From NCBI GenBank assembly GCA_012519325.1, contig JAAYQK010000153.1, positions 1 to 37,959 of the forward strand: a stretch of DNA of 37,959 bases, read 5' to 3'. Both the position numbers and the translations under genes were made by a program. The notes beneath the pieces are model-generated. The model searched no databases and was not told the origin of the DNA. It saw only the letters and a list, made by a program, of their open reading frames with translations. Shown here piece by piece: positions 996 to 37,959 of the stretch (position 1 is the first letter of the stretch; every line of letters begins with the position of its first letter). The DNA comes from Gracilibacteraceae bacterium. Lineage in GTDB: Bacteria; Bacillota; Clostridia; Lutisporales; Lutisporaceae.

Positions 996-2306
<1,311 letters not shown>

Positions 2307-2356
2307 TTATTGTAACAAGGTATTAATGAGGCGGGAGGTATATACCCGTCTTATTA

Positions 2357-3106: not shown

Positions 3107-3122
3107 AATCTTACCTCCTAAA

Positions 3123-4310: not shown

Positions 4311-4418
4311 TAGAATCCTCCTAGTCGATGTTAATTCCGCATATGTCGTTGAAAGTACATGCTTTTCACAGCATATTATCAAGGAAACATATCGCAGATC
4401 TTGAAACTGGTGTTAATA

Positions 4419-6459
<2,041 letters not shown>

Positions 6460-6474
6460 TTTACTACTCCCATG

Positions 6475-6510
6475 GACAAAAATTGTCCCTCTTATAATAT
6501 TATCGTCCCG
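6475..6510 (-). promoter_or_regulatory. CggR operator
   Basis: On the minus strand CGGGAC (6505-6510), six bases, ATTA, four bases, AGGGAC (6485-6490), six bases, then TGTC (6475-6478). This is the spacing of the known B. subtilis CggR operator, CGGGAC-N6-TGTC-N4-CGGGAC-N6-TGTC. The downstream repeat is nearly intact; the TGTC of the upstream repeat has decayed to ATTA. It covers the start of the transcript, about 16 bases before the cggR ATG. Confidence 0.85.
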
Positions 6511-6518
6511 ATATATTA

Positions 6519-6547
6519 ATTATATTATATAATCATTCCAATTTCAA
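6519..6547 (-). promoter_or_regulatory. sigma-A promoter of cggR-gap-pgk-tpiA-eno
   Basis: On the minus strand TTGAAA (6542-6547), a 17-base spacer and TATAAT (6519-6524). Transcription would begin near 6511-6512, so the CggR operator occupies roughly the first 35 transcribed bases, as expected for a block just downstream of the start site. Confidence 0.75.
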
Positions 6548-6593
6548 TACATACATGTATTATTTGCTAAAATCAATATTTTATAAGAAATAT

Positions 6594-6661
6594 CCATAAA
6601 AAAATACCTCCAGGTAGATAATCTAATTTTAATTAATAAGACTGTCTACTTTGGAAGTATC
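6594..6661 (-). terminator. probable rpoN terminator
   Basis: Downstream of rpoN on the minus strand, ATACTTCCA and GTAGA pair with TCTAC and TGGAGGTAT across a small internal loop. The apical loop is long and AT-rich, and a run of seven T follows. The long loop makes it less certain than the other terminators here. Confidence 0.6.
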
Positions 6662-6678
6662 ATATCATTACGCCACTT

Positions 6679-8082
6679 TTAGTATCTTTTTCTTTTTGAA
6701 GAAGACAGAATACCCAGTTCATCCCTGTACTTTGCCACTGTCCTCCTTGAAATCATATATCCTTCCTTAACAAGCAAATCTGCTATATTCTGATCGCTGA
6801 GAGGCTTGCTTGCATCCTCATTGCTTACATAACTTTTTATCATCTTTTTGATGCTTTCCGAAGAAATTGCTTCCCCATCCTGATTATCCACACCGCTTTT
6901 GAAGAAGTATTTGATTTCGAATATCCCCCGGGGAGTCTGCACATATTTGCCGTTTATTGTCCTGCTAACTGTTGATTCATGTACATTCACCATTTCTGCA
7001 ATCTTCTTCAATGTCATTGTTTTCAGAAACATAGGCCCTTTTTCGAAAAAGTCCATCTGGTAGTCCAATATAGCCTTTACTACATTATATAAAGTGTTTT
7101 TCCTATGCTCAAGGCTCTTTATAAGCCACATTGCCGAGGACAGTTTATTGTTTATGAAAGCTGAAGCCTGAGACGACTTATCCTCGGAAACCAGAATTTT
7201 TTTATAAAACTGATTTATAATAAGTCTGGAGCCATAATGGTCATTGACTATTACTACATATTCATTTCCTACTTTTTCTATATATACATCCGGTGTTACA
7301 TATTTTGTTGAGGTTCCTTCCTCGAAGGCCCGGCCGGGTTTTGGCTCAAGGCTCTTAATAATATCGCTGTATCTTTGGGCTTCTTCAATGCTTACAGAAA
7401 GTTTTTTTGATATATTGCTAATCCTGTTGGATGCAATGTCATCCAAATGATCCGAAATAATAGTTTCGAGCTTCTCATCAAGAATATCTTTACTCTTCAG
7501 CTGTATCAGAAGACATTCCTTCAGATGAGATGCACCTACACCATAGGGTTCAAAGGTCTGGATTACGCTTAGTGCCTCTTTTACTGCTTTAATATCAACA
7601 TAAAGTATGGCTGCCAGATCCTCCTGTGTAATGGTAAGGTATCCGTTTTCATCAAGACTCTCAATAATATACTCGCCGATACCTCTGATTTTTTTACTTA
7701 TCTGAGATACCCTAAGCTGTGAAATAAGATGATCCTTCAATGTGTATGAATAAGTTACGAAATTCTCATAAGAGAGTTCGGCAGCATCATCATTCTCAAA
7801 GCCACACTCAGAATAACTCTTACCTTGAAACTGGAAGTATTCCTTCCAGTCAATTTCTTTTTCATTTTCTTTTTCCTTTTTGTCTTGTTTATGTTGTGCT
7901 TCGGATTTTTCATCCCTGCTATCATCTACCAGTTCAAGAACGGGATTATCTTCCAACTCGTGCTGCAATAGTTCCTCAAGTTCTACTGTGGGCAATTGAA
8001 GTATCCTCAGAGCTAACTTAAGTTCAGGTGTCATGATAAGCTTCTGCTGCTGTTCTATTAATAAATCATATCCCATTCTCAT
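6679..8082 (-). CDS. rpoN: RNA polymerase sigma-54 factor
   Basis: Sigma-54 (SigL in Bacillus) directs RNA polymerase to -24/-12 promoters that need ATP-driven enhancer-binding activators. The 467-residue protein has region I at the N terminus (LIEQQQKLIMTPELKLALRI), an acidic charged linker at about residues 50-85, the core-binding middle, a helix-turn-helix (VHESTVSRTINGKYV) and the C-terminal RpoN box SRRTVAKYRD that reads the -24 element. The start at 8082 follows a GGGGGGTGAT site; the ATG two codons later is an alternative. It is a single gene with its own promoter and terminator, directly upstream of cggR. A matching promoter is at 37763-37778. Confidence 0.97.
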   Translation of the reverse strand: MRMGYDLLIEQQQKLIMTPELKLALRILQLPTVELEELLQHELEDNPVLELVDDSRDEKSEAQHKQDKKEKENEKEIDWKEYFQFQGKSYSECGFENDDAAELSYENFVTYSYTLKDHLISQLRVSQISKKIRGIGEYIIESLDENGYLTITQEDLAAILYVDIKAVKEALSVIQTFEPYGVGASHLKECLLIQLKSKDILDEKLETIISDHLDDIASNRISNISKKLSVSIEEAQRYSDIIKSLEPKPGRAFEEGTSTKYVTPDVYIEKVGNEYVVIVNDHYGSRLIINQFYKKILVSEDKSSQASAFINNKLSSAMWLIKSLEHRKNTLYNVVKAILDYQMDFFEKGPMFLKTMTLKKIAEMVNVHESTVSRTINGKYVQTPRGIFEIKYFFKSGVDNQDGEAISSESIKKMIKSYVSNEDASKPLSDQNIADLLVKEGYMISRRTVAKYRDELGILSSSKRKRY

Positions 8083-13125: not shown

Positions 13126-14313
13126 CTAGCAATTGCAGTCCAAGGGTTTTTCGGCAATATGCTTATTCTTTAGAAGTACATCAATCGCTTTGATATAGTC
13201 CTCCTCGGCTACAAGTACTATTGGTCCTGTGCAGCCCATTCCACTTTCCGAATATATTCCCTCCCCTGCAAGAGATGCTACAGCATTTTCAAGTTCAAGT
13301 ATATCTATTCCTGCAATAGATTTTGTCACTGGTTTCTTTTCAAGCTGCTTAACCTCAGGTTTTGACATGGTCTTTGCAGTGTCAGAAGTCAATTCCTTCA
13401 ATATGCTGTCAAGTCCTGCTTTTCTGGCCTTTTCATATTCCTCTCCGGCTATCCTTGTAAGTCCTCCCTTGGCACAGCTTGCCGCATATCTTAGAGCTTC
13501 GCATACTACAGGCGCACCTGACGCTCTTGAAAGTATTCCGATTATCTTTCCATAATTGTCTCCGACCCCTGGGCCATAGCCATAGCCCAATGACTCATAG
13601 CTGCCGCCGGTTGTAAATGCCGAAAATATTTTTATCATAAGGTTTCCGGTTAATGTATCCATTACCATGACATCAGCCGCTGCGGACAACAGGTCATTGC
13701 CTCTCATCACAACACCTCCGTCAGCTCTTAAGGACTCTGAAAAGTTAATATCATAACCGTTGCTCTTGAGTTCCTTGAGAGCTATCTCCACCTGTCTGGC
13801 GCCGTCGACATTAAGTATTCCAACTGTTGGATTTTTTATCCCTAAAGCTTTTGCTGTAATTATTCCATTAAGGGCATTCTTGATCATTCCGGCTACCCTG
13901 TGAGTGGATGAAGTACCTGTAGTCGTGGCAAGTATTAATTCCTTGCCAAAACCCGGAGTAATAACCCTGCCAACTGTAGAAACGCCTATTGGAAAGTTGT
14001 AATGCATAGTGACGGCTGCATCCAGCTCTTCATTGTCCAGAAGCTCATCCATCCTCTTATGCATATCTACTTCATTTTCTGCCTCAACCACTCTAAGTTT
14101 AGTATCAACCTTAGGGCCGATCAGCACAACCTCAAAATCGCCATATTTATTGGCAGCCATTTCCGCGCCCTTTACCAGTTCTTGAGTACCGTGCTCACTT
14201 CCAAGAATAGTCAGGCCTACTTTTACTTTTTTCCCGAATTCACCTGTCATAATAGCATCGGCAATCTCGTTAAACACTTCACCTATCATTGACTTAACTT
14301 GATTTTCAGACAT
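13126..14313 (-). CDS. grdD: glycine reductase complex protein C, subunit D (GrdD)
   Basis: With GrdC it forms protein C, which turns the carboxymethyl group handed over by GrdA into an enzyme-bound acetyl thioester and releases acetyl phosphate. The fold resembles PlsX-type phosphate acyltransferases. From the ATG at 14313 (MSENQVKSMIGE), after AGGGGTG, the protein is 395 residues. The conserved Cys in SESGMGCTGPIV falls at residue 361, corresponding to the essential thiol described as Cys359 in the Eubacterium acidaminophilum protein. The start is 5 bases after the grdC stop, so the two are coupled. It is the last gene of the grd operon. Confidence 0.95.
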   Translation of the reverse strand: MSENQVKSMIGEVFNEIADAIMTGEFGKKVKVGLTILGSEHGTQELVKGAEMAANKYGDFEVVLIGPKVDTKLRVVEAENEVDMHKRMDELLDNEELDAAVTMHYNFPIGVSTVGRVITPGFGKELILATTTGTSSTHRVAGMIKNALNGIITAKALGIKNPTVGILNVDGARQVEIALKELKSNGYDINFSESLRADGGVVMRGNDLLSAAADVMVMDTLTGNLMIKIFSAFTTGGSYESLGYGYGPGVGDNYGKIIGILSRASGAPVVCEALRYAASCAKGGLTRIAGEEYEKARKAGLDSILKELTSDTAKTMSKPEVKQLEKKPVTKSIAGIDILELENAVASLAGEGIYSESGMGCTGPIVLVAEEDYIKAIDVLLKNKHIAEKPLDCNC

Positions 14314-14318
14314 TAATA

Positions 14319-15863
14319 TCACCCCTGCTTTCCATTCAGTAAGAAGGATGCAAAATCTTTCATTGCCTCTGCTACCATTTCCTTCACTTCCTCTTTCGAA
14401 ACCGCACCTGTCGACTCTTCCCTGCCCGTATTTTTCTCCATTATGATGGATACACCGTCAAATTGGTTAGTCATTCTTCCAAGGAACAGGCTTCCCTTAC
14501 CTACTATCATTGCTCTCTCAATGGCGCCTGACATGATCATTTCCCTTGCCGCTCCGACATATGGCACTCCTGAAGGAATATGCCCTTGTGTGGGTGCAAA
14601 GCCCGGCATACCATGCTCCTTAATGAATGAAGGCATTGATGTCTTGTCAATATCTCCTCTCTTTGCACCTAGCGCAGCTATCATTTTATAGTTTGCCAGC
14701 GGAACGTTCCCTGCTCCTGCCGGTTCTGTAATCTCAGGATTTTGCATTTCTACGGAGTATTTGTCTATATCTGTGATCTTCATACCGACTTTATCTAAAG
14801 GCTTGGTTATCAAGGATTCCATAACAGCCTGAGGCGATGAACCGGTGCCTACGGTATGTCTGCCGACTATATCAGTTCTGAGTACCGGGCTTATACCGTC
14901 GTTTTCTGTTACAAGTACAGCGAAACCTCCCAAGCAATCCTCAAGTACCGGAACTCCTTTATTAACATGGTCTCTGGCATTCATTCCCAGTTTTGCCGTC
15001 GCACCTCCGGCAACTATTGCTACACTCTTATAAACCCCTGCCTTTACCAATGCGGCAGCATTTATAAGTGCATGGGCAGGTGCCGCACAGAATCCTCTTG
15101 TATCCGAGCCTGTAGCACCGGTAGCACCCGCTACTTCACATATTGCTTTGGCAAAGTTGCCGACCCCTCTTTGGTTCATATCCCCGCAGGCTTCCTCCGA
15201 GCACTCTATTACATATTCAATGGAATCGGCAGGGATATTGTTCCTGTAAATCAGGTTCTTCAGTGCAATTACACCTGATGCTTTAGTCACAAGATTTTCT
15301 ACCATTATGTGGGCGGTCAGGTTCTTGTCCTTATCATGAGCAGCCTTTACGCAGCCCACCAGCTTACTGCCCATATAAAGAGGTTCTGCTCCTCCTCTAA
15401 CTTTGCTTTCAATTTCGGACAGCTCCGAGCCTTCTTTAAGCTTTGCCAGCTCAGCTTCCGTATACAGCGACTTTTTTGCCAGCTTTGCCTTTATTTCTAT
15501 AAGAAAATCCTTCTCCAATGCAACAAGGTCAAGAGCATCACTGAGCTTTATTGCTGCATAAAATTCATCTTGACTAACGATTTCTCCCATTTTACCCTCT
15601 GCATCGGCAGCCTGAATAAGATTCTTATACCATGGTTTTTCTATTGTATTAAGTATATCAGGAAGTATGTTCCCTATATATGCCTGATTGGGGGCATATT
15701 TCACGACTTCTTCATAACTCCTTACATACTCAGGAAGCTTTTTTAAGAATTCCGATTCAGGATTAGCTTCATGTTCAAGGGCACATGTGGTGCCATAACG
15801 CATTATCATATCCGGTGTATGAACAAGTATATATGCTGCTCCTCTTACAACCGGTGCACTCAT
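14319..15863 (-). CDS. grdC: glycine reductase complex protein C, subunit C (GrdC)
   Basis: GrdC is the larger, beta-ketoacyl-synthase-III-like subunit of protein C. The 514-residue length matches the family. The N terminus APVVRGAAYILVHTPDMIM is typical. The thiolase-like core contains CSEEACGDMNQRGVGNFAKA and GFCAAPAHALINAAALV near residue 260, which holds the FabH-like active-site Cys position. A charged tail ends the protein. GGAGGTGTATAATT precedes the ATG. A hairpin terminator and about 100 bases of repeat-like sequence separate it from grdB, so grdC and grdD may be expressed below grdE, grdA and grdB. Confidence 0.95.
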   Translation of the reverse strand: MSAPVVRGAAYILVHTPDMIMRYGTTCALEHEANPESEFLKKLPEYVRSYEEVVKYAPNQAYIGNILPDILNTIEKPWYKNLIQAADAEGKMGEIVSQDEFYAAIKLSDALDLVALEKDFLIEIKAKLAKKSLYTEAELAKLKEGSELSEIESKVRGGAEPLYMGSKLVGCVKAAHDKDKNLTAHIMVENLVTKASGVIALKNLIYRNNIPADSIEYVIECSEEACGDMNQRGVGNFAKAICEVAGATGATGSDTRGFCAAPAHALINAAALVKAGVYKSVAIVAGGATAKLGMNARDHVNKGVPVLEDCLGGFAVLVTENDGISPVLRTDIVGRHTVGTGSSPQAVMESLITKPLDKVGMKITDIDKYSVEMQNPEITEPAGAGNVPLANYKMIAALGAKRGDIDKTSMPSFIKEHGMPGFAPTQGHIPSGVPYVGAAREMIMSGAIERAMIVGKGSLFLGRMTNQFDGVSIIMEKNTGREESTGAVSKEEVKEMVAEAMKDFASFLLNGKQG

Positions 15864-15889
15864 AATTATACACCTCCATAATTATAAAT

Positions 15890-15912
15890 AAAATGCGTTA
15901 ATAACGCATTTT
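15890..15912 (-). terminator. hairpin between grdB and grdC
   Basis: Perfect 10-base arms (AAAATGCGTT / AACGCATTTT) with a 3-base loop and a following T-rich stretch on the minus strand. It lies within the operon, after grdB and before the grdC ribosome site, so it would act as a partial terminator or mRNA-stabilising end. Confidence 0.7.
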
Positions 15913-16000
15913 ACGGCAATGGGTTATAGGCAATGAGCAATGGGTCCATCCCTTGTTTAACCTATCGCCACCTGCCTATAGCCTCTCGCCTTGCGCTGTA
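15913..16000. repeat. repeat-like sequence between grdB and grdC
   Basis: Imperfect repeats of a CAATGGG/GCAATGAG-type unit (GGCAATGGG, GGCAATGAG, GCAATGGGT), then CCTATCGCC, CCTGCCTATAGCC and CTCTCGCC runs. The composition is richer in G and C than other spacers here. It looks like a dispersed intergenic repeat rather than coding sequence. Confidence 0.45.
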
Positions 16001-16006
16001 AGCGCC

Positions 16007-17311
16007 CTATTTTTCAAATACCGTTTGTCCGTCTACTTCTGTCTCAAGTGCTTTAAGTGCTCTTAGCACTATGGATCTTCTTAATTCTTTCTCATCTTCC
16101 TTGCTCAGTGCCGGATTCCCCAGGGGGTGTGGTATTGCAATCGCAGGAACTATCCTATTTGCCCCAACAGTCAAGGAAATTGGAACAACGGTACATACAT
16201 GTACAACCGGTATTCCGGCTCTTTCAATTTCTTTTACCATCGTTGCACCGCAACGTGTACAGGTACCTCATGTAGACGTGAGTATAACTGCTTGTACCCC
16301 ATCCTTTATAAGCTCCTGTGCAAATGTTTCTGCAAATTTCTTTGCATTGGCAACTGATGTTCCATTCCCTACAGTTGAATAGTAGTATCTATGAAGCTCA
16401 CCAATAACGCCTTCCTTTTCCAGGTCTCTCATTACATCCACAGGGAGAACCCTGTCCGCATCTATATTAGCGTATGTTGGATCATAGCCGCCGTGAGCTG
16501 TTTCATAGGTTTCTGCCGTCAGGTCATTTACACCTGTCAAATCATACTTCCCATATTTTGAAGCACTGGAGGATTCTATTCTGTCCGGATTGCCCTTTGG
16601 TACTATACCTCCTGAAGTCACAAAAGCTATCTTGGCTTTTTTCATGTCCGCAACCGGAGGATTAGGAGCCACCCTGTCAAAATCCGGCATGGGGTATTCT
16701 GTCTCGAATTTCTCCCCTTTAAGCTTTGCAACCAGCATGTCTACAGCTCTCTTGGAGCCTCTCTCGGATTTGAATATATTCTTTCGTACTCCTCTGGGAA
16801 TATAACCCTCTTCTTTCGGCATACCAATATCCTCGTTCTTTGCAAGCTTCAGTGCAAGCTTTGCAATTGCAGGAATTGCCTGTCTCATTCCTGTTGCTGC
16901 ATTTGCTGTCTCAATTATATATATGTCCTTCTTGAACATATCAACTCCCGGATTCCCAATAAACATACCGGTAATTACAGGGATATTCAAATTATCCTTG
17001 ACAGCTTTGCAGACCGATCCGCAGGCTACCCCGTACCTTCCTGCGTTAAAAGCAGGGCCGGCTATAAACAGGTCCGGATTGTACCTCTTAACCATTTCCA
17101 GAATTGCTGCGGAAGCCTCTTCAATATTCTCATTGAAATATGAATCCCCGCATATTACCGTCGCTACTATTTCAGCTTCGGCTCCTAATGCAGCCTTAAG
17201 AGCCATTCCGGGACCAACAACACCTTCTCTGATTTCCGGTTTTACATCAGCCTTTTCTTCGCCGCCAATACCACCGTAGAATTGATTTATATAATGTACA
17301 ACTCTAATCAT
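16007..17311 (-). CDS. grdB: glycine reductase protein B selenoprotein subunit (GrdB), with in-frame UGA = selenocysteine
   Basis: GrdB is the selenoprotein of the substrate-specific protein B. With pyruvoyl GrdE it activates glycine and passes a carboxymethyl group to the selenol of GrdA. The frame runs through TGA at 16268-16270, giving 434 residues with Sec348 in the motif U-G-T-C-T-R-C (UxxCxxC), the position known for GrdB (Sec350 in E. acidaminophilum). Conventional translation would cut it at 347 residues (ending VILTST). The N terminus RVVHYINQFYGGIGGEEKAD is family-typical. A strong stem-loop lies directly after the UGA (16235-16266). It lies 57 bases after grdA, with AGGAGGG upstream of the ATG. 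Confidence 0.97.
16235..16266 (-). promoter_or_regulatory. bacterial SECIS element candidate in grdB
   Basis: Immediately 3' of the Sec UGA in the mRNA, CGTTGC and GCAACG form a perfect six-pair stem with a GGU loop (16241-16255). An outer TACC/GGTA helix (16262-16265 with 16235-16238) closes below an internal loop. The hairpin base is 12 bases from the UGA, within the range for SelB-binding bacterial SECIS elements, and the loop carries the usual G-U. It must also encode the UxxCxxC region. Confidence 0.7.
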
Positions 17312-17368
17312 TTTAGAAGTTTCCCTCCTCTCTAGATTTGTTAATTGAAATAAACCCTTACATTTTTA

Positions 17369-17833
17369 TCAATCTTTATACTGGGAGTATTGGTCTCGAA
17401 TTGAGCTTACTTCTTTGATGATTGCATCAACATCAAGAACCATTTCCATCATACCGCATTGTTCATCATATACGTTTGCATCAATCTGATCCTTTAATTC
17501 AAAGGCATGGTATACACCGAGTCCCAACGAGACTCCTGCCAAAGGACCTGCATAAGTAGGATCTCCTGCTGTAACCGTTTCAGCAGTGAGTCCTGCAGAT
17601 TCAGCCTCAGATGTACCAATAATTACGACAACATTCTCCTTGCCGTATTTTTCTGATAAATCCAAAACTCTCTTCTGATTTTCCAGGTCCATTGCTCCTG
17701 CAGCCGTTCAGACGAAGCATTCCGTTGCTGCGAATACCACTTCGCCGCCCACGGTCTTTATGCACTCTTCTATTGCAGGAGCAGGAATACCATCTCTGTC
17801 GCCGATGATGATAACCTTTTTATCCTGTAACAT
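17369..17833 (-). CDS. grdA: glycine/sarcosine/betaine reductase selenoprotein A (GrdA), with in-frame UGA = selenocysteine
   Basis: GrdA is the small acidic selenoprotein that takes the carboxymethyl group from protein B as a Se-ether and delivers it to protein C, then is reduced by thioredoxin. The frame crosses TGA at 17708-17710, giving 154 residues with Sec42 in CFVU, followed by [13 protein letters not shown], diagnostic for GrdA. The fragment downstream of the UGA alone would be 107 residues. I start at the ATG at 17833 ([15 protein letters not shown]), 9 bases after GAAAGG; an ATG three codons upstream (17842) touches that site. A four-pair CAGG/CCTG hairpin lies after the UGA but is weaker than the grdB one. 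It sits between grdE and grdB. Confidence 0.97.
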
Positions 17834-17901
17834 ATTATTCATCCTTTCAAGATTTATTTAGTTCAATGTTCAAGGGCTTTGCCTCATAGAATACCCTGAA
17901 A

Positions 17902-19188
17902 TTAATATTCTGCCGCACTTAATGTGTTAAAGCCTATTTCACTTGTGGAACCTGTGATTACTTGAAGCTCAGCAACAATGCTTCCGTCTTCCTTAAGGCT
18001 TCCTGAGAAACCGCCTGCAATTATATCTGCCGGCTCAAGATAACCGATAACCTTCTTCATAGGCGGCAATGATATAATCTCGTTTGCATTGCCTGCCGTA
18101 ACCACTGCATCCGCTGACTTATCAGCATCGGCAAGGGACTGGGAAGCACCATCTCTCCCTGCATATTCATCAGTTACCAAAACTGTCTTGATCCCTTTTG
18201 CAGATATCTTCTTGCAGTTCATCATAAGATCCGTATCAGGATTTCCAAAGCCTTCCTCAGATATTATTACAGCATCAAGATTCAAATATTCTGCGAGCTT
18301 TGCAGTCCAGTTGGAGGACCTTTCCTTGTCTGCAAGAGTAACATTTTCATTTGTAATTATTACCCCTACAAAGTTGAAATCCTTTCCATGCCTTTCATAA
18401 AGGTCTTCGATAATAGGATTGTTCAAATGGTTGTATGTCGGATTCTTGTCGCAGGCCGATACGCAGTTTCCGCTGACAATTGCTCCATCCATCACTTCCG
18501 TAGGATATATGAGCGTAGGAACAATCTTCTTTGCATCCACACCGTATACATAGGTGTCATGAAGAAGTCCCTGGGTCTGAAGCATATATACATAAGCCAC
18601 TCTTGGAAGATTAGGATACTGCTCCATTCCTTTCATCAATGTGGGAGTTTCATATACCTTTACTTCATCAGGAGTAATGTTCTTTCCTGCTTCTCCAATA
18701 TAAGCCGCTGCCTTTAATCCAACCATCCTTACCGCCTGCTCATGCTCATGCTGCTGTAGGTTTTCCACAGGTGTGCATACAATTACGATATTCTGTGTCT
18801 TTGAAAATGGAGTATACTTTGCTCCGGGTCCGCTCATATCTATAATGCCTTCCTGGAATCCAACTATCTTTCCGGCAGTCACTACTGCAACACCTTTTAG
18901 TGCGTTTGTTTTACCGGAGCCGACAACGTCTACCTTACTTATCATACCTGGGAAAATCCCACCGGGGCCTTCCACCTTGACCCTGGGTTCAATTACGTCT
19001 TTTACAGGCATTATTCTTGTCTCTTCACCTGGTTTTGCAATGTCAATCTCAATTTTTGTCAGTCTTGGGTCACCGCTAACTGCCTCCAAAAGCTCGGTTT
19101 TGTTAACATATAGGGTTCCCTTTTCAACTTTGGTAACATCACCGAATTGTACATCTTTAATGAATATATTGCCCAACTCTAAACGCAA
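17902..19188 (-). CDS. grdE: glycine reductase protein B proprotein subunits alpha/beta (GrdE)
   Basis: GrdE is made as a proprotein and self-cleaved; the new N-terminal Cys of one piece becomes the pyruvoyl group that forms a Schiff base with glycine. I start at the TTG at 19188 (MRLELGNIFIKDVQFGD), 6 bases after GGGAGGTG, giving 428 residues. The longer frame from 19260 has no family match at its N terminus. The cleavage site fits exactly: Asn241-Cys242 in VSGNCVSACDKNP, equal to the Cys242 reported for Clostridium sticklandii. The C-terminal part has GGFSGSLKEDGSIVAELQ and STSEIGFNTLSAAEY. It lies between trxA (26 bases) and grdA. Confidence 0.95.
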   Translation of the reverse strand: MRLELGNIFIKDVQFGDVTKVEKGTLYVNKTELLEAVSGDPRLTKIEIDIAKPGEETRIMPVKDVIEPRVKVEGPGGIFPGMISKVDVVGSGKTNALKGVAVVTAGKIVGFQEGIIDMSGPGAKYTPFSKTQNIVIVCTPVENLQQHEHEQAVRMVGLKAAAYIGEAGKNITPDEVKVYETPTLMKGMEQYPNLPRVAYVYMLQTQGLLHDTYVYGVDAKKIVPTLIYPTEVMDGAIVSGNCVSACDKNPTYNHLNNPIIEDLYERHGKDFNFVGVIITNENVTLADKERSSNWTAKLAEYLNLDAVIISEEGFGNPDTDLMMNCKKISAKGIKTVLVTDEYAGRDGASQSLADADKSADAVVTAGNANEIISLPPMKKVIGYLEPADIIAGGFSGSLKEDGSIVAELQVITGSTSEIGFNTLSAAEY

Positions 19189-19214
19189 AACGTTCACCTC
19201 CCTAATAATATAAT

Positions 19215-19535
19215 CTAAATATTCTCTTTTATGAGGTTTTCTATTGCTTCTGGGGTACAATTCTCTGCCCCGCTGATTTCTTTAATTTTCTCCCCGTTTT
19301 TGTATACTATAAAAGTTGGAAGTCCTAATACTTTTTGTCCGATTGCGAGTCTTCTGTTCTGAGTAGTGTTAAGCTTGCACATTTTCATTTTGTCCCCGTA
19401 TTTTTCAGCAAGTGCGTGTACATCGGGCATCAGCGCTTTGCAGGGTTCACATTTTTCTCCCCAAAAATCAACCAGCACCGGACCTTCAGCCTGCATTACC
19501 TCTGCCTCAAAATTATCCTTAGTCAGCTCAATCAT
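19215..19535 (-). CDS. trxA: thioredoxin of the glycine reductase system
   Basis: This thioredoxin passes electrons from TrxB to oxidised GrdA. From the ATG at 19535 (MIELTKDNFEAEV), behind AGGAGGTG, it is 106 residues, normal for thioredoxin. The active site reads FWGEKCEPCKALMP, so the redox pair is C-E-P-C rather than the usual W-C-G-P-C, as seen in thioredoxins dedicated to grd operons. The cis-Pro region is GLPTFIVYKNGE. It follows trxB by 13 bases and precedes grdE. Confidence 0.95.
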   Translation of the reverse strand: MIELTKDNFEAEVMQAEGPVLVDFWGEKCEPCKALMPDVHALAEKYGDKMKMCKLNTTQNRRLAIGQKVLGLPTFIVYKNGEKIKEISGAENCTPEAIENLIKENI

Positions 19536-19548
19536 ACTTTCACCTCCT

Positions 19549-20481
19549 TTAAATTTCAAAATTCTTTTCGATATACTTTTCTGCATTGACAGCAGCTATT
19601 GCTCCATCTGCAGCTGCTGTAACAACCTGTCTCAGTGATTTTACTCTAACGTCTCCCGCTGCAAATATTCCGTCAACTGATGTTCTCATTTCTTCATCGG
19701 TCTTTATATATCCCTTTTGGTCCATTTCTACAATACCCTTTGCAAATTCGGATATAGGCTTAGTTCCGACAAACATGAACACACCGTCCGTCCTAAAGTC
19801 CGTTATTTCGTTGGTCTTCACATTCTTGAGCTTTACACCCTCAACTATTCCGTCACCATATATCTCTTCCACTACCGTATTCCACATAATATCTATCTTA
19901 TCGTTGTTCATTGCCTTTTCTGCAATCGATTTTGCCGCCCTGAATTGATCCCTTCTATGTACTATAGTTACTTTTTCAGCGAACTTTGTCAGATATATGG
20001 CCTCTTCAACTGCTGCATCTCCGCCTCCGACAACCACAACTTCCAATTCAGTGAAAAAATCGGCATCACATGTTGCACAATAGGATACACCTTTTCCCCT
20101 GAGTTCCGCCTCACCCGGTACTCCCAGCATCATCGGCTGAGCACCTGTTGCGATTATTACTGCTTTTGCACTTATGTCCTTGCCGCTTCCCAAAATTATT
20201 TTCTTTGTTTTGTCTGATGTGTCGATGCTTGTTACTTCGTCTTTCACAAGCTCAGCCCCAAAGGCTTCTGCCTGGTTTTTCATCCTCTCCATAAGCTTAG
20301 GCCCTGTCGGCATTTCAATTGAACCGGGATAATTTTCAAGTTCTTCCGTGGTACCCGCCTGTCCGCCCCATTTAGCCCTCTCTACTATTAATGCACTCAT
20401 TCTGGACCTTGAAGCATACAATCCCGCCGAAAGGCCTGCAGGTCCTCCGCCTATTATTACAACATCATATACTTTGCTCAT
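19549..20481 (-). CDS. trxB: thioredoxin reductase
   Basis: This FAD enzyme transfers electrons from NADPH (or another donor) to thioredoxin. The 310-residue protein has the N-terminal FAD motif GGGPAGLSAGLYASR, the redox disulfide CATCDADFF near residue 135, a second nucleotide-binding motif GGGDAAVEEAIYL and the C-terminal FAD block GIFAAGDVRVKSLRQ. GGGAGGG precedes the ATG. The second dinucleotide-binding region (VTIVHRRDQFRA) has the HRR-type basic motif usual for NADPH enzymes. It lies between grdX and trxA, the same order as in other grd clusters. Confidence 0.96.
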   Translation of the reverse strand: MSKVYDVVIIGGGPAGLSAGLYASRSRMSALIVERAKWGGQAGTTEELENYPGSIEMPTGPKLMERMKNQAEAFGAELVKDEVTSIDTSDKTKKIILGSGKDISAKAVIIATGAQPMMLGVPGEAELRGKGVSYCATCDADFFTELEVVVVGGGDAAVEEAIYLTKFAEKVTIVHRRDQFRAAKSIAEKAMNNDKIDIMWNTVVEEIYGDGIVEGVKLKNVKTNEITDFRTDGVFMFVGTKPISEFAKGIVEMDQKGYIKTDEEMRTSVDGIFAAGDVRVKSLRQVVTAAADGAIAAVNAEKYIEKNFEI

Positions 20482-30633: not shown

Positions 30634-31899
30634 CTACAGCAAGAGTGAAAAGGGATTCTCAATGATTTCTTTTATCCTCTTCATAAACTTCGAAGCCTCT
30701 GTTCCGTCAACCACTCTGTGGTCGGCCGTCAAACTCAGTTTCATCATTGGCCTAATGTCTATTTTCCCGTTTATTACAACAGGAGTGTCAACAATTGCTG
30801 CGATTCCAAGTATTGCAAGTTCAGGCTGGTTAATTATAGGGGTAAAGGATTCTATTCCGTACATGCCTACATTAGTTATAGTAAATGTCCCAAAACTCAT
30901 GTCATCCGGTGACAGTCTGTTTGACCTTGCATCACTTATAAGCTTTTCTGTTTCTTCTGCTACTGCAAGTAATGGTTTTGATTCAACATTTTTTACATTC
31001 GGAACAAGCAAGCCATTGTCAACAGCTACAGCAAGTCCGATATTTACATGGTCATGAAGAATCAACTCATCCCCGTCGATAGTTCCATTTATATAAGGCA
31101 TTTCCATCAGCACTTTTGCACATATCTTCATTATCAGATGATTGTAAGTCAGCTTAATACCGGCTTTTTCGCAAGTATCCTTCATGCTGTCCTTAAAAGC
31201 CCTCATTTGGGTTATATCCACCGACGTATTATAAGTAACCATAGGTGAAATACTCCAGCTTTCAGACATTCTCCTGGCAATTACCTTTCTGAGGTTGGAA
31301 AGCGGAATTACTGATTCAGAATGTCTGAATGCCAGCACATCATCCTTCATAATTCTTCCGCTTTTCTTTATATCCTTTAAGCTTATACCCAAATCCTCAG
31401 CTGCTCTTACTGCCGTAGGAGAAGCTTTAACCTTACTTTTTTCCAAGTATTCTTCAATATCTTTAACTACTATTCTTCCCTGTGGTCCTGTGCCCTTAAC
31501 CAAACTTATATCAACATTATTGTCCGCAGCAAGTTTTTTAGCCGCAGGGGAAGCTTTACTGCCTATGCTGTTTCCCTGTGCTTGAGCCTTCTCCTCAGTA
31601 ACTTTTTGTTCAACATGTTCCGAAAAACCTATATCGGATAAAAGGGAAGTCAAATCTTCATTTTCCTCGGCAATTATTGCAACAGGAGCGGTACATGGAA
31701 CAGATGCACCTTCAGCAGCTAATTGTATTCTTAGGATACCATTTGCATCAGCCTGTACTTCATTTGTGAGTTTCTCAGTTGTTACCTCAAATAATGCATC
31801 TCCCTCTTTAACTCTTTCCCCTTGGGCTTTATACCATTTTGTAATAATTCCTTCAGTCATGGTCAGCCCCAGCTTTGGCATTACAACTATATGAGCCAT
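30634..31899 (-). CDS. acoC: 2-oxo acid/acetoin dehydrogenase E2 (dihydrolipoyl acyltransferase) with two E3-binding-like domains
   Basis: E2 receives the acyl group from E1 on its lipoyl arm and passes it to CoA. The 421-residue protein has an N-terminal lipoyl domain (residues 1-80, lipoyl Lys43 in VTTEKLTNE) and a linker. A peripheral-subunit-binding domain lies at about 115-152 (ASPAAKKLAADNNVD ... GTGPQGRIVVKDI). A second, divergent copy lies at about 158-191 (ASPTAVRAAEDLGIS ... KKSGRIMKDDVLAF). The catalytic domain ends with the active-site His394 motif DHRVVDG. Most E2s have one binding domain. AGGGGG precedes the ATG. It lies between the chemoreceptor and E3. PDH E2 remains possible; the aco name follows the E1 type. 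Confidence 0.92.
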   Translation of the reverse strand: MAHIVVMPKLGLTMTEGIITKWYKAQGERVKEGDALFEVTTEKLTNEVQADANGILRIQLAAEGASVPCTAPVAIIAEENEDLTSLLSDIGFSEHVEQKVTEEKAQAQGNSIGSKASPAAKKLAADNNVDISLVKGTGPQGRIVVKDIEEYLEKSKVKASPTAVRAAEDLGISLKDIKKSGRIMKDDVLAFRHSESVIPLSNLRKVIARRMSESWSISPMVTYNTSVDITQMRAFKDSMKDTCEKAGIKLTYNHLIMKICAKVLMEMPYINGTIDGDELILHDHVNIGLAVAVDNGLLVPNVKNVESKPLLAVAEETEKLISDARSNRLSPDDMSFGTFTITNVGMYGIESFTPIINQPELAILGIAAIVDTPVVINGKIDIRPMMKLSLTADHRVVDGTEASKFMKRIKEIIENPFSLLL

Positions 31900-31931: not shown

Positions 31932-32783
31932 TCAGAAATCTGTTTCTTGATCAACATTTGACAGGTCATAAGTCAATTTGTCCAGATGACTTGCCATTGT
32001 TCCTAATTCCTGAATTGACTCGGCTATATGATTAATTGCATTTGAAATGTCTGAAACAACATTTTTCACTTGATCAACCTCCTGTAAAATGCTGTCTTCA
32101 TATTCTTGTATATCTTTAATTGTGCTTCCTATCTTTTTAACAGAATCAGCACTGCTTAGGGCAAGCTTTCTGATTTCCTGCGCAACAACGCCAAATCCTC
32201 TGCCCAATTCTCCTACCCGGGCAGACTCAATAGCCGCATTAAGTCCAAGAAGATTTGTTTGTGAAGCGACACTATTAATGAACTCAGCTATATTGTCCGT
32301 CTCCTTCATCTTCTCTTTTGAATTCTGCACCATTCCTGCAAGCTCAGTGCAAACAGCAGCTACTTCTTCAGTCTGGGCAGATATTTCCTGTGACGTACTT
32401 GCCAGGACATTGATATTTTCACTCAGGCTTTCTGCAACCTTCTTCAGGGTATCGTACTTTTCCACGTTTTCTTGTATCGAAACCGAACCGACTACCTGGT
32501 TGTTCTCATCATAAAGAGGTATAGCAACTGCAATAAATGGGATGCCCCACAGGGTAGTATCCATTCTTTCAACCAGGCGGCACCTCTGAACCATCGCACG
32601 ATAGCTTATCATCTTTGGATTAACCGGCGTTCCGTATGGAATTTTCAGGTCAATCCGTGCTCCGGGCTTATAATATACTACAATATCTTTATCTGTTATG
32701 GATATGCTTGCATCACCGATAAACAAGTCCATGATTTCCGGAGCCATTGCCACCCATTTTTCAACTATCTCATGTATACTCAT
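31932..32783 (-). CDS. soluble methyl-accepting chemotaxis-type sensory protein
   Basis: A 283-residue cytoplasmic chemoreceptor without signal peptide or membrane segments. Residues about 1-110 form a sensor region with a PAS-like pattern ([18 protein letters not shown] ... [22 protein letters not shown]). Residues about 115-275 are coiled-coil signalling domain with the kinase-control tip [21 protein letters not shown] followed by [15 protein letters not shown]. The signalling arm is short, as in compact cytosolic receptors. AGGAGGACAGAG precedes the ATG. It lies between dctM (37 bases) and the E2 gene (32 bases), so it is likely co-expressed with the transporter and enzyme. It may sense the transported substrate or a product; that is inference. 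Confidence 0.9.
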
Positions 32784-32820: not shown

Positions 32821-34104
32821 CTATTTTACCCCCATTATATTAGGAAGCAATAATGTAATTTGAGGGAAATATGTAATTGCAAATAATGCCAGAATAGATG
32901 CCAGTACAAAAGGCAATACAGCTCTTGATATTTCTTTAAGACTGATATTTGAAATTCCACAGGCTACATATAAATTTACACCCACGGGAGGAGTAACCTG
33001 ACCAATGGCAAGGTTCATAGTCATAAGAACCCCCAGAGCAATGGGATCATATCCAAGTTCCAGTGCAACAGGCAGCATAATAGGTATAAAAATATAAAGT
33101 GCAGATACTGCATCAATAAAGCATCCTGCAATAATCAATATTATATTTATAATAAGCAGGAATACGATTTTACTGCCGGAAATATTGAGTAATAACTCTT
33201 GAGCCATCTCAGCAATGCCTTCTGTCTGACAGAACCATGCAAACAGGGATGCACATGCCACTATAAGCATAACCGTTGCTGACTGCACAGATGATTGTAC
33301 CAATAGCATATGGAATTCTTTCCACTTTATTTTCCTATAAACAAAAATCCCCACAAGAAGTCCGTATACTGCGGAAACAGCCGCTGCTTCAGTAGGAGTA
33401 AATATACCACCGTATATACCGCCAAGAATAATTGCAGGCATCATCAAACCCCATATAGCATCTTTAAAAGCACTCCATTTTTCCTCTGAGGAGGCTTTAA
33501 CCTGCATTTCTACATCCAATTTGCTACTTAATATTAATGAAACAACAATTAGACAGGCACCCATCAAAAGCCCGGGAACAATACCTGCAATAAATATCTT
33601 TACTATAGATACCTCAGCTACTGCCCCATATACAACAAAAGCTATGCTCGGGGGAATGATTATACCTATTGCTCCGGAGGTAGCCATAAGAGCTGATGAC
33701 ATTCCTTTCCCATAACCGGCATTTATCATTGCAGGGATAATTATAACTCCCAGAGCTGCTACAGTTGCAGGCCCGGATCCTGAAATTGCAGCAAAGAAAC
33801 ATGAGGTAATAACACATACAATTGCCAATCCGCCTTTTCTATGTCCAACGAATTTATTTGCAAGGTTTATCAATTTTTCTGATATTCCGGCTTTCTCCAT
33901 AATATTTCCCGCCAGAATAAAGAAAGGTATTGCAAGCAACGTAAACTTTCCTGTTGCTGCATATATCTGCATAGGAAGCATATCAAGGGGTGTGCCGCTC
34001 ATAGCCATTGCAGCCAGGCTTGAAAGTCCCAGTCCCAATGCTATCGGAACATTCAGCAATAACAATACTATAAATGATAAAAATAAAACTCCGGCAACTG
34101 ACAT
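32821..34104 (-). CDS. dctM: TRAP transporter large permease (DctM)
   Basis: This is the main translocation subunit of a sodium-driven TRAP importer for organic acids. The 427-residue protein has about 12 hydrophobic segments. Family motifs are IPFFILAGNIMEKAGIS near residue 60, ISGSGPATVAALGVIIIP near residue 108 and GIIIPPSIAFVVYG near residue 148. The second half repeats the fold (IFTPTEAAAVSAVYGLLVG, then GQVTPPVGVNLYVACGI). Its ATG directly follows the dctQ stop, so the pair is coupled. Substrate is set by DctP, not by this subunit. Confidence 0.95.
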   Translation of the reverse strand: MSVAGVLFLSFIVLLLLNVPIALGLGLSSLAAMAMSGTPLDMLPMQIYAATGKFTLLAIPFFILAGNIMEKAGISEKLINLANKFVGHRKGGLAIVCVITSCFFAAISGSGPATVAALGVIIIPAMINAGYGKGMSSALMATSGAIGIIIPPSIAFVVYGAVAEVSIVKIFIAGIVPGLLMGACLIVVSLILSSKLDVEMQVKASSEEKWSAFKDAIWGLMMPAIILGGIYGGIFTPTEAAAVSAVYGLLVGIFVYRKIKWKEFHMLLVQSSVQSATVMLIVACASLFAWFCQTEGIAEMAQELLLNISGSKIVFLLIINIILIIAGCFIDAVSALYIFIPIMLPVALELGYDPIALGVLMTMNLAIGQVTPPVGVNLYVACGISNISLKEISRAVLPFVLASILALFAITYFPQITLLLPNIMGVK

Positions 34105-34575
34105 CTAATCTCCCCCCTGTTCTTTAAAGGCATTTATTCCAAATTGAATAAATTCTATAGCCATGAATATCCCGCCAATCGGTACAAACAATCCGAATAT
34201 CCATTCCGGCCAACCCATTGCCGGGGTGGTTTGCCCCAATCTGATTTCTGATTGAACCATGTCAAAACCATACTTGATTAAAAACCCGCAAAAAACCATA
34301 GCTGCTAATACTGTAATTAACGTAATATACTTTTGCATCTTTTTAGGCAGCAAATCCGTAAGCACACTGAGTCCCATATGTGCACCTTTTTTTGCCGCAA
34401 CAGCTGCTCCAATCAAACTGGACAATATGAACAAGACTGTTGTGATTTCTTCGGTAAAGGCCCAAGATGCTGAAAAAACCTTTCTTGCAAGAACATTTGC
34501 AAAGGTTATGAATGTCATTATAATAAGGCTCACGGACAGTATATATTCTTCAAAATGATCAAGAAGCTTTCTCAT
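34105..34575 (-). CDS. dctQ: TRAP transporter small permease (DctQ)
   Basis: The small membrane subunit that joins the binding protein cycle to DctM. From the ATG at 34575 (MRKLLDHFEEYILS), behind AAGGAGG, it is 156 residues with four hydrophobic segments and typical DctQ features: FANVLARKVF near residue 25, then the WAFTEEITTVLFI block near residue 37. The frame extends six codons upstream (34593) but this region contains the ribosome site. It follows dctP after a hairpin and abuts dctM. Confidence 0.93.
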   Translation of the reverse strand: MRKLLDHFEEYILSVSLIIMTFITFANVLARKVFSASWAFTEEITTVLFILSSLIGAAVAAKKGAHMGLSVLTDLLPKKMQKYITLITVLAAMVFCGFLIKYGFDMVQSEIRLGQTTPAMGWPEWIFGLFVPIGGIFMAIEFIQFGINAFKEQGGD

Positions 34576-34624
34576 GTAACAACCTCCTTCCATTGCTCGG
34601 TATCAACATAAAATTGAGAGAATT

Positions 34625-34667: not shown

Positions 34668-35708
34668 TTATCTGAAAGCGTCAATAAATTCCTTACCCAT
34701 GATGCCTTCATATTCTGTGTACACAGACTGAACTGCTTCTATAAACGGTTTCATATCTTCGGCAGTAAACTCATACACTTTCATACCCTTATCCTTGAAC
34801 TCCTGAACCTGTTTCTCACCCTTTTCTCTGTTTAACGCTACCTGGAATTTGCATGCCTCATCCGCAGCTTCTTGTATCCCCTTTTGAATTTCGGGGCTGA
34901 AGCTTTCAAACTTTGCTTTGTTTATACCCAAAATTAAAGCATCATATGAATAGTTCCATACGGACATGTACTCTTGTACCTCATATAGCTTGGATGAAGA
35001 AATAACATCTGTAGGGTTTTCCTGTCCGTCTATTGCTTTTTGCTGAAGTGCTGTAAATACTTCCGCGAAGTTCATTGCGGTTGGATTTGCGCCAAGGGCT
35101 TTATATAGTGAAATATACATTTTTATACCGGGTATCCTGATCTTTAAACCGGCCATATCCTTCAAAGTCTTTATTTCTCGCTTGCTGTTGGTAATCTGCC
35201 TGAAGCCGTTCTCCCCAAATCCAAGTCCTACAACACCTTTTTCCAATAACAGCTTCTTTATTGCTTCTCCGCCGGCTCCTGCCAGTTTTTCATCAGCTGT
35301 TTCATTATCCGGTAACAGCCATGGTAAGCTTATTACTCCAAATTTTTCATCCATTATAGAGTAAATTATGTTGGAGTGATAGCTTAGATCAATAGCGCCA
35401 CTCATCAGCATTTCCACGCCTTTACCCTGATTTCCCCCTGACAGCTGCTCATTGGGATAAACCTTGACTTCAACTTTTCCGCCGGTCTTTTCTTTTACCA
35501 GCTCGGCGAACTTCTGTGCACCTATTGTCCATGTTGAACCGTCAGCAGTTGTAACACTCATTTTAAGTACTTCCGGTTTAACTTCCTCTGCAGGGGCACT
35601 TTCTGCAGGCGCACCTGCAGCAGGTGCTGCGGCCTTTGGAGCGCAACCCGTAAATGTAAGGGCTGCCAAAGTCAGAATAAGAGTAATTGCCAGTACCTTT
35701 TTTAACAT
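34668..35708 (-). CDS. dctP: TRAP transporter solute-binding lipoprotein (DctP)
   Basis: The extracellular receptor of the TRAP system. The 346-residue protein has a lipoprotein signal with lipobox FTGC (Cys22), an Ala/Pro/Glu-rich linker to about residue 45, and a DctP domain. Its LKIRIPG segment near residue 190 contains the conserved Arg that pairs with a substrate carboxylate, followed by ALGANPTAMNFAEVFTALQQ and IDGQENP. This indicates a carboxylic acid substrate. GGGAGGAATTAAA precedes the ATG. It starts 61 bases after acoB. Given the E1/E2/E3 genes around it, a 2-oxo acid or related acid is the natural guess, but the sequence does not fix it. Confidence 0.94.
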   Translation of the reverse strand: MLKKVLAITLILTLAALTFTGCAPKAAAPAAGAPAESAPAEEVKPEVLKMSVTTADGSTWTIGAQKFAELVKEKTGGKVEVKVYPNEQLSGGNQGKGVEMLMSGAIDLSYHSNIIYSIMDEKFGVISLPWLLPDNETADEKLAGAGGEAIKKLLLEKGVVGLGFGENGFRQITNSKREIKTLKDMAGLKIRIPGIKMYISLYKALGANPTAMNFAEVFTALQQKAIDGQENPTDVISSSKLYEVQEYMSVWNYSYDALILGINKAKFESFSPEIQKGIQEAADEACKFQVALNREKGEKQVQEFKDKGMKVYEFTAEDMKPFIEAVQSVYTEYEGIMGKEFIDAFR

Positions 35709-35769: not shown

Positions 35770-36741
35770 CTAAAACATTCTCTTAACTCCATTTACAATG
35801 TCCTCTACCGATACTCTTACGCCCTTCTCCAGTGTAGGTGCAAAGGGTATTGGAACAAAAGGTGCACCAAATCTTAATATTGGAGCATCCAGGCTGTCTA
35901 TAGCCTCTTCCGCTACTATTGCAGAAATCTCTGCTCCGACTCCACCCTGCTTTACTGCTTCATGGGCCACTACAAGCCTTTTTGTTTTGGCAACAGAGTT
36001 AAGAATAGTTTCCTTATCAATGGGTGATATCGTTCTTAAGTCTACAACCTCTGCGCTGATCCCGTCTTTTTCCAGAGCTTCTGCAGCTTCAAGTACTGTA
36101 TTCATCATTATTGAGTATGAAACTATAGTCACATCGCTGCCCATTTTTACTACATTTGCTTTGCCGATGGGCACTGTATATTCACCATCCGGAACCATAC
36201 CTTTTTGTTTAAATAATACCTTGTTTTCAAAGTATATTACAGGATTGTTGTCTCTAATTGCTGATTTCAGCAACCCCTTCGCATCCGCAGGATTTGATGG
36301 TGCTACAACCTTTATTCCGGGGATATGCAGGAACCATGACTCTATACTTTGAGAATGCTGAGCCGCTGCCTGTAATGTAAGCCCGTCAGGGGCTCTAACC
36401 ACAACCGGCATTGAAGTTTGTCCCCCAAACATATATCGTATTTTGGCCATCTGATTGAATATTTCATCCATGCAAACTCCCATAAAATCAGCAAAATGCA
36501 TGTCCGCAACCGGCCGCATACCTGCCAGGGCAGCCCCTACCGATGCGCCGACAATTGCTGTTTCAGATATAGGTGTATCTATTACTCTCTCAAATCCGAA
36601 TTTTTGCGGCAACCCCTTGAATTGCCCGAATATGCCGCCTTGCCTTGCAATATCTTCGCCCATGATGAAAACTCTTTCGTCCCGCAGCATTTCTTCTTCC
36701 ATTGCTTCAAGAGTTGCCTGTGAAAATGTTATTTCTTTCAT
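35770..36741 (-). CDS. acoB: acetoin/2-oxo acid dehydrogenase E1 component, beta subunit
   Basis: With AcoA it forms the thiamine-diphosphate-dependent E1 that cleaves acetoin or decarboxylates a 2-oxo acid and acylates the E2 lipoyl arm. The 323-residue length is typical. Motifs are MGEDIARQGGIFGQFKGLP near residue 27, RVIDTPISETAIVGASVG near residue 53, MHFADFMGVCMDEIFNQ near residue 81 and VDLRTISPIDKETI near residue 225. AGGAGATGTG precedes the ATG. It begins 12 bases after acoA and precedes dctP. Confidence 0.94.
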   Translation of the reverse strand: MKEITFSQATLEAMEEEMLRDERVFIMGEDIARQGGIFGQFKGLPQKFGFERVIDTPISETAIVGASVGAALAGMRPVADMHFADFMGVCMDEIFNQMAKIRYMFGGQTSMPVVVRAPDGLTLQAAAQHSQSIESWFLHIPGIKVVAPSNPADAKGLLKSAIRDNNPVIYFENKVLFKQKGMVPDGEYTVPIGKANVVKMGSDVTIVSYSIMMNTVLEAAEALEKDGISAEVVDLRTISPIDKETILNSVAKTKRLVVAHEAVKQGGVGAEISAIVAEEAIDSLDAPILRFGAPFVPIPFAPTLEKGVRVSVEDIVNGVKRMF

Positions 36742-36753
36742 TTTTCACATCTC

Positions 36754-37719
36754 CTATTCATATAAGTCATCAAAAAGTTCTGAAGGTTCGGGATATGGGC
36801 TGTTTCTGGCATACTCTACCGATTCATCTATCATTCTTTCAACTTTCTTTCTTACATCTTCCATTTCTTTCTTAGTCATTAGGGATTCTTTTACTGCCTT
36901 TTTTTCGAATTTCTTTATCGGATCTGTTTCCTCGAATATTTTCTGTACCTCTTCCTTTGTTCTGTATAGCTCCGGATCCCCCACAAAGTGTCCTTTGATT
37001 CTATACGTCTTTGCTTCTATTAATGTAGGGCCTCCGCCCCGTCTTGCCCTCTCAACGGCAAGCTTCACAGCATTATATACTTCAAATACATCGTTACCAT
37101 CGACAATCACTCCCGGCATTCCATATCCTGCCGCTCTGTCGGAAATATTTTCAACCGAGGTTGTCGTTCTATAGGGCGTTGTAGATGCCCAGCAATTCAT
37201 CTCACAAACAAAAAGCACCGGAAGCTTCCATATTGCCGCCATGTTTGCCGCTTCATGAAATGTCCCTCTGTTTGAGGCTCCGTCTCCGAAGAACACTACT
37301 GAAACATTGTCTCTTTTCTGCATTTTGCATGCAAGAGCAGCACCTACGGCAAGATTGTATCCTCCGCCGACAACGCCGTTTGCACCAAGCATCCCGACAC
37401 TAAAATCCGCAATATGCATAGAGCCGCCTTTACCTTTACAAAATCCGGTTTTCTTTCCGAGAATTTCTGCCATAGCCCTATTAATATCTGCTCCCTTGGC
37501 AATGGTATGTCCATGCCCGCGATGTGTACTTTCTATATAGTCCTCCTTTCTGAGGTTTGCGCATACACCTGTTGCTATTGCTTCTTCTCCAATATACAAA
37601 TGCACGAATCCGGGTATTTCCCCCGCAATGAACATTTTTTCTACTCTTTCTTCAAAAAATCTAATTTTCAGCATCGTCTCATAAAAGCCTGCAATAGTAT
37701 TTTTATTAAGTGCTTCCAA
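36754..37719 (-). CDS. acoA: acetoin/2-oxo acid dehydrogenase E1 component, alpha subunit
   Basis: This is the thiamine-diphosphate-binding E1 subunit, 321 residues from a TTG at 37719 placed 5 bases after AGGAGGTG. The IPGFVHLYIGEEA stretch near residue 34, STHRGHGHTIAKG near residue 64 and KGKGGSMHIAD near residue 94 match B. subtilis AcoA closely. The diphosphate/Mg motif is GDGASNRGTFHEA near residue 145. Its far end reads CEMNCWA instead of the usual ENNxYx: the Mg-binding Asn is kept, but the preceding Asn is Met and the Tyr is Trp. It is the first gene of the operon behind a sigma-54 promoter. PDH or another 2-oxo acid dehydrogenase is the alternative. Confidence 0.93.
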   Translation of the reverse strand: MEALNKNTIAGFYETMLKIRFFEERVEKMFIAGEIPGFVHLYIGEEAIATGVCANLRKEDYIESTHRGHGHTIAKGADINRAMAEILGKKTGFCKGKGGSMHIADFSVGMLGANGVVGGGYNLAVGAALACKMQKRDNVSVVFFGDGASNRGTFHEAANMAAIWKLPVLFVCEMNCWASTTPYRTTTSVENISDRAAGYGMPGVIVDGNDVFEVYNAVKLAVERARRGGGPTLIEAKTYRIKGHFVGDPELYRTKEEVQKIFEETDPIKKFEKKAVKESLMTKKEMEDVRKKVERMIDESVEYARNSPYPEPSELFDDLYE

Positions 37720-37762
37720 ATTGTCACCTCCTCAAAGATCAAAAATCTCCGATACTTATCCC

Positions 37763-37778
37763 AGCAAATTCCATGCCA
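37763..37778 (-). promoter_or_regulatory. sigma-54 (-24/-12) promoter of the aco-TRAP operon
   Basis: The minus strand reads TGGCATGGAATTTGCT, matching TGGCAC-R-N4-TTGCW at all but one base with exact GG-to-GC spacing. It lies about 45 bases before the acoA start, with transcription expected near 37752. B. subtilis acoABCL is likewise sigma-54 dependent, activated by AcoR. No activator gene is visible; it may lie just beyond the right edge. Confidence 0.85.
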
Positions 37779-37868: not shown

Positions 37869-37919
37869 TAAAAAAACTGCTCAAAATTTAAACATTATAT
37901 TGCTAAAATTTTGAGCAGT
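37869..37919 (-). terminator. terminator of a gene upstream of the aco operon
   Basis: Long arms ACTGCTCAAAATTT / AAATTTTGAGCAGT (37876-37919) are followed by TTTTTTT on the minus strand. It implies a minus-strand gene ending just past the right edge of the window. Confidence 0.8.
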
Positions 37920-37959
37920 GCTAATATTTTTAACACAAGTACCTTGTATGCAATTAATA

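Follow-up and report, generated by a model that had tools for sequence, protein, structure and literature searches.

The stretch of DNA analysed here (the window, 37,959 nucleotides) is an entire contig, C384, of the Gracilibacteraceae bacterium assembly. It carries on its minus strand an acetoin-dehydrogenase-type gene set, in which E1 alpha, E1 beta, E2 and E3 are all found together. The acoA gene (E1 alpha, 36754–37719, PF00676) has a TTG start with a GAGGAGG ribosome-binding site just before it, and is followed by acoB (E1 beta, 35770–36741), which scores above the NF006667 cut-off. The next three genes encode a TRAP transporter, with the solute-binding protein DctP (34668–35708, above the TIGR00787 cut-off and aligned to a PDB chain), the small permease DctQ (34105–34593) and the large permease DctM (32821–34104, above the TIGR00786 cut-off). 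The match of DctQ to the NCBIfam TRAP small permease YiaM is below cut-off; it is 54–60% identical to the gene that separates dctP from dctM in five relatives. Further inside the operon, 31932–32783 encodes a 283-residue protein with an MCP signal domain (PF00015), which hints at a connection with chemotaxis or sensing. No tblastn match to this gene was found in the related operons, where a PCC-domain gene follows either acoB or dctM. The dihydrolipoamide acyltransferase gene acoC (E2, 30634–31899) falls below the curated cut-offs of all NCBIfam E2 families and is syntenic in relatives, and acoL (30514 down to 29120) encodes the dihydrolipoyl dehydrogenase E3, above the TIGR01350 cut-off. Two more E1/E2-type clusters are present in the same genome, on contigs C243 (L046) and C207 (L047), with AcoA proteins 53–54% identical.

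The same contig encodes a full-length, intact sigma-54 factor (rpoN, 6679–8082, minus strand; 447 bits against TIGR02395, above cut-off), with its AID, CBD and DBD domains. It stands within a group of genes at 996–8082, beside a cggR-like regulator gene, gap, pgk, tpi and eno, an order found in other clostridia. Genes for thioredoxin and thioredoxin reductase belong to a glycine-reductase cluster, at 13126–19586; in the list of open reading frames its GrdA- and GrdB-like frames appear broken, probably at an in-frame TGA, as expected for selenoproteins.

A sigma-54 promoter core, TGGCATGGAATTTGCT, lies in front of acoA at 37763–37778, read on the minus strand from 37778 to 37763. It matches the consensus exactly, with GG at −24, GC at −12 and the GG-N10-GC spacing. 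The core is preceded by a T, giving TTGGCATGGAATTTGCT, to be read against the clostridial consensus TTGGCATNNNNNTTGCT (PMC6615313). The preliminary description of this DNA had already pointed to a near-consensus motif with exact spacing about 45 bases before acoA; the distance, once counted, is 43 nt to the TTG start at 37719. The transcription start that it had placed near 37752 is likewise reproduced as a prediction by counting from the −12 C at 37764. The pattern TGGCAYRN4TTGCW occurs exactly once in the window, compared with 0.08 occurrences expected for DNA of the same size and composition. One-mismatch matches, by comparison, number four against 1.8 expected and thus carry no meaning; the remaining three are all intragenic according to the list of open reading frames.

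Across the 2.66 Mb of the genome, which is split into 397 contigs, 13 exact matches were found, against one with the reversed pattern used as a control. Most of them lie directly upstream of fermentation or amino-acid-catabolism genes, which include, as identified by reading translations, those for 3,5-diaminohexanoate dehydrogenase, butyrate kinase, CoA-transferase, 2,4-diaminopentanoate dehydrogenase (ornithine) and thiolase; two or three are intragenic or remote from genes. The preliminary description had also seen a meaningful link in the presence of rpoN in the same window as its target, some 30 kb away. This reading is rejected: sigma-54 acts in trans and 12 of the 13 exact sites are on other contigs, so that the nearness of rpoN is incidental.

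The contig stops 181 bases upstream of the promoter, and an AcoR/PrdR-type activator gene had been expected just beyond position 37959. The end of such a gene was indeed found, among the 13 PF00158 matches of the genome, where contig C308 of this assembly starts. C308 begins within the last codons of the gene, which points out of the contig, and the protein reads ...SRNTIYNKIKKY as far as the contig runs, while the orthologues terminate in KKYNLVE*, RKYGLV*, NKYELV* and KKYNLA*. It is the assembly's only activator-type gene broken off at its 3′ end, and the best own-genome match to the activator of a Sedimentibacter metagenome-assembled genome (MAG), at 57% compared with 45% for the next. The minus strand of C384 starts with TATTAA, which provides a stop codon in one frame. 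No DNA overlap was found between C384 and other contigs; we infer that C308 and C384 are adjacent, with no read or overlap spanning the join. Another activator gene of the genome is apparently split between the end of C289 (L031) and the start of C50 (L032), inside its AAA domain (profile positions 1–109 and 112–167).

The C308 protein contains GAF (PF01590), PAS (PF00989), Sigma54_activat (PF00158) and HTH_8 (PF02954) domains, all above cut-offs, with 238 bits for PF00158 and the GAFTGA motif present in the sequence. It thus combines the AAA+ domain with GAFTGA, the sensory GAF/PAS modules and the Fis-type HTH of AcoR-like activators. It is below the cut-off of every named NCBIfam activator family, the best being PrdR and DhaR. 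Its response to the substrate, proposed beforehand, can only be suspected from the GAF and PAS domains.

Six loci were compared, namely the window, three relatives (G150, G042 and G075), the Sedimentibacter MAG (L050/L104) and UBA1065 (L103). Among the closest relatives by AcoA (L048, L049 and L051–L054), the DNA immediately before acoA gave no −24/−12 match; the informative comparison was the one made through the activator. Orthologues of the C308 activator at 63–64% identity are encoded in G150, G042 and G075, where the activator gene directly adjoins three dyads, followed by TTGGCA and acoA, then acoB, the PCC-domain gene, dctPQM, acoC and acoL. In the Sedimentibacter MAG, whose activator is at 50%, the activator gene is succeeded by the array, an exact −24/−12, dctPQM, PCC, adh and acoABC. 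The UBA1065 activator (50%), array and exact −24/−12 reach the end of their contig, and a separate contig (L049) opens with dctPQM, PCC and acoABC; here too, activator and operon being on separate contigs, their adjacency is deduced. A genome of the same genus, G003, encodes the activator at 87% identity on a contig that stops inside the gene. Clostridium magnum has no close activator orthologue (best match 42–43%), and no −24/−12 match was found upstream of its acoA. The −24 element TTGGCA is at the same place in all six loci; the −24/−12 pair is exact in three of them, and the other three have a degenerate −12 element (TTGTA, TTGAG). This degeneracy and the C. magnum case, where AcoA is 76% identical, count against the sigma-54 reading.

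Between the activator gene and the promoter lie the three dyads, on the minus strand of the window: UAS1 (TGTTAAAAATATTAGCA, 37919–37935), UAS2 (TGCTCAAAATTTTAGCA, 37901–37917) and UAS3 (TGTTTAAATTTTGAGCA, 37878–37894), the far edge of the latter and the −24 element being about 100 bp apart. Each is a 17-bp TGY-N11-RCA dyad kept in the six loci, where the distances from start to start are invariably 18 and 23 bp. In 934 kb of scanned strands, the TGY-N11-RCA triple with this 18/23 geometry was confined to these junctions. Across 398 genomes of the same phylum (about 1 Gb), it turned up at the locus of the window and in a single unrelated sequence, common to three genomes of one genus. The distance from the UAS3 start to the −24 region ranges from 104 to 210 bp across loci, within or near the usual 100–250 bp. 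Clostridial activators usually have tandem TGT/ACA-type sites placed 100–250 bp away from the promoter (PMC6615313), and the three conserved dyads can be considered as candidate activator-binding sites.

UAS2 and UAS3 are also inverted matches of each other. The DNA at 37870–37919 (minus strand) would form a hairpin from these two sites, followed by T7, with a predicted folding energy of −20.0 kcal/mol; the energies predicted for the five loci folded range from −17.6 to −24.2 kcal/mol. When one core is inverted, UAS2 and UAS3 match at 51 of 54 positions. Of 720 permutations of the genomes, only two reach this level, one of them being the true pairing, and the figure is one of 24 when the four loci with a T-run are taken alone; the same test revealed no such inverted coupling for UAS1. 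The pairing covaries among the six sequences, with 94% of cells paired compared with at most 43.5% when the arms are slid, and 14 hairpin cells changed on both sides. A coordinated flip of both sites is shared by the Sedimentibacter MAG and UBA1065, which adds to the covariation signal. A T-run follows the hairpin in four of the six loci (the window, G150, G042 and G075), the exceptions being the Sedimentibacter MAG and UBA1065. A generic terminator scan did not list the UAS2–UAS3 hairpin. In the four T-run loci, the sequence nevertheless looks like a terminator of the activator gene overlapping its enhancer. Given the covarying hairpin and these T-runs, the enhancer may double as the terminator of the activator gene. 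The stronger proposal, that the terminator of the activator gene and the enhancer of the neighbouring operon are one element, in which the two promoter-proximal inverted sites would act as terminator hairpin at the RNA level and as activator targets at the DNA level, is tentative, and we hold it as possible rather than probable.

A general design of this kind was also considered, but found no significant support: palindromic arms were not significantly commoner at about 30 other activator genes than in 56 control hairpins (p 0.06). The overlap is thus proposed for this activator group only. Two single cases were seen elsewhere in the genome. On contig C160 (L034), an activator gene upstream of a butyrate-kinase gene has at its end a hairpin with TGCA-type dyads in both arms, followed by T5, about 135–185 bases upstream of a sigma-54 site at 5413; this is a second possible overlap. 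On contig C210 (L037), about 105–140 bases upstream of a sigma-54 site at 9612, a 2,4-diaminopentanoate dehydrogenase-like gene is preceded by a hairpin with T6, made of a perfect 16-bp palindrome of the TGCAAATAAATTTGCA type and its near-copy. A literature search for enhancers overlapping terminators at sigma-54 loci found none, with a narrow query that gives this result little weight.

The hairpin raises the question of whether the dyads have anything to do with activation. They could merely be the terminator of the upstream gene, the promoter being sigma-54-dependent and activated through other sites or by another activator, as the AT-rich UAS2–UAS3 hairpin followed by T7 might suggest. However, UAS1 lies outside the hairpin and retains both TGY-N11-RCA and the 18-bp offset in the six loci, the two loci devoid of T-run still keep the triple, and the array has the tandem layout usual for clostridial activators (PMC6615313); we consider this explanation very unlikely. 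Still less credit can be given to a sigma-A promoter driving the operon, with the −24/−12 match as a chance occurrence or a relic. Two weak sigma-70-like pairs (9/12) are indeed present nearby on the minus strand, but the −10 of one is at about 37700, within acoA, while the second coincides in part with UAS3 and the hairpin. Counted on both strands, such pairs number three, near the level of shuffled sequences (mean 1.5, sd 1.1), whereas the sigma-54 match is exact, rare and kept alongside the enhancer array in relatives. The sigma-54 promoter with an AcoR/PrdR-type ATP-dependent activator, as initially described, is supported by comparative evidence, namely the C308 activator, the positions of its orthologues and the conserved enhancer.

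It is very probable that the whole switch consists of this sigma-54 promoter, an AcoR-like activator encoded immediately upstream and three tandem sites, which together drive the aco operon. The promoter at 37763–37778 would direct transcription of the minus-strand operon acoA-acoB-dctPQM-(MCP-like)-acoC-acoL. The dedicated GAF-PAS-AAA+-HTH_8 activator, with its GAFTGA motif, would be encoded immediately upstream in the same direction, by the gene on C308 whose last codons fall in the contig gap, and would bind the three 17-bp sites at 37878–37935. Upon sensing a small-molecule signal through its GAF/PAS domains, it is expected to hydrolyse ATP and, through DNA looping, to open the sigma-54 RNA polymerase complex at the promoter.

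This switch is of a largely familiar type. AcoR/sigma-54 control of acoABCL is reported as established in Bacillus subtilis (Ali et al. 2001, as cited in PMC6615313) and as predicted across Clostridium (PMC6615313), and the window provides a further case, in another lineage. The shared features are the E1-E2-E3 operon behind a −24/−12 promoter, the activator gene, here probably, beside its target, the GAF-containing activator with GAFTGA and HTH_8, and the upstream dyad sites. In contrast to these systems, the operon of the window includes a TRAP transporter and the MCP-like gene, its enhancer is a strict 18/23 three-site array with the UAS2–UAS3 hairpin, its activator passes no named NCBIfam cut-off, and C. 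magnum is without a close orthologue. The highest NCBIfam score of the activator is obtained with PrdR, the proline reductase activator (NF041552), at 417 bits, far below the 795-bit cut-off. The TGT-N10-12-ACA site type reported for PrdR is also shared, but the target here is an E1/E2/E3 operon and not prd. DhaR (PRK11388) aligns over nearly the full C308 activator with 406 bits, below its 551-bit cut-off, and has a different target. What is new here is the fixed three-site enhancer, the TRAP transporter in the operon and the possible enhancer/terminator overlap.

The identity of the substrate is a separate matter, compatible with the sigma-54 reading preferred above. The E1/E2/E3 complex could act on the carbon skeleton of an imported carboxylate (an alpha-hydroxy-keto or 2-oxo acid) taken up through the TRAP transporter and sensed by the activator, rather than on acetoin. 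All five relatives that encode this activator have the dctPQM genes within or beside the operon, although the UBA1065 activator stands on a contig of its own. Acetoin is a neutral molecule, whereas DctP carries an arginine of the carboxylate-binding type, Arg191, which aligns with Arg147 of the SiaP-type chain 9bh3. In SiaP, Arg147 is a selectivity filter for carboxylates (PMC4646407). The transporter and its arginine therefore suggest, at the level of sequence, that the imported substrate, and hence the inducer, may be a carboxylate and may not be acetoin. The scores of E1 alpha and E2 below the NCBIfam equivalog cut-offs point in the same direction, as do those of the activator, already mentioned. 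On the other hand, the acoA product is 76% identical to that of the acoA-like gene of C. magnum DSM 2767, a species in which acetoin dehydrogenase has been described, and the TRAP transporter may be there for a second substrate or a by-product. The carboxylate is thus a serious candidate, to which we give slightly less than an even chance.

For this uncultured lineage, these results would provide a concrete sigma-54 switch that can be tested, since its activator is named, its candidate sites are exact and its start is predicted, and the fixed 18/23 geometry offers a searchable signature for the activator group. If the TRAP-linked operon uses a carboxylate, the "acetoin" label on similar clusters needs correcting. 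If enhancer and terminator are one element, both functions would evolve together, and the activator, once bound, could influence read-through from its own gene. If demonstrated, such a combination would amount to a compact regulatory design, of which no description was found in the literature searched.
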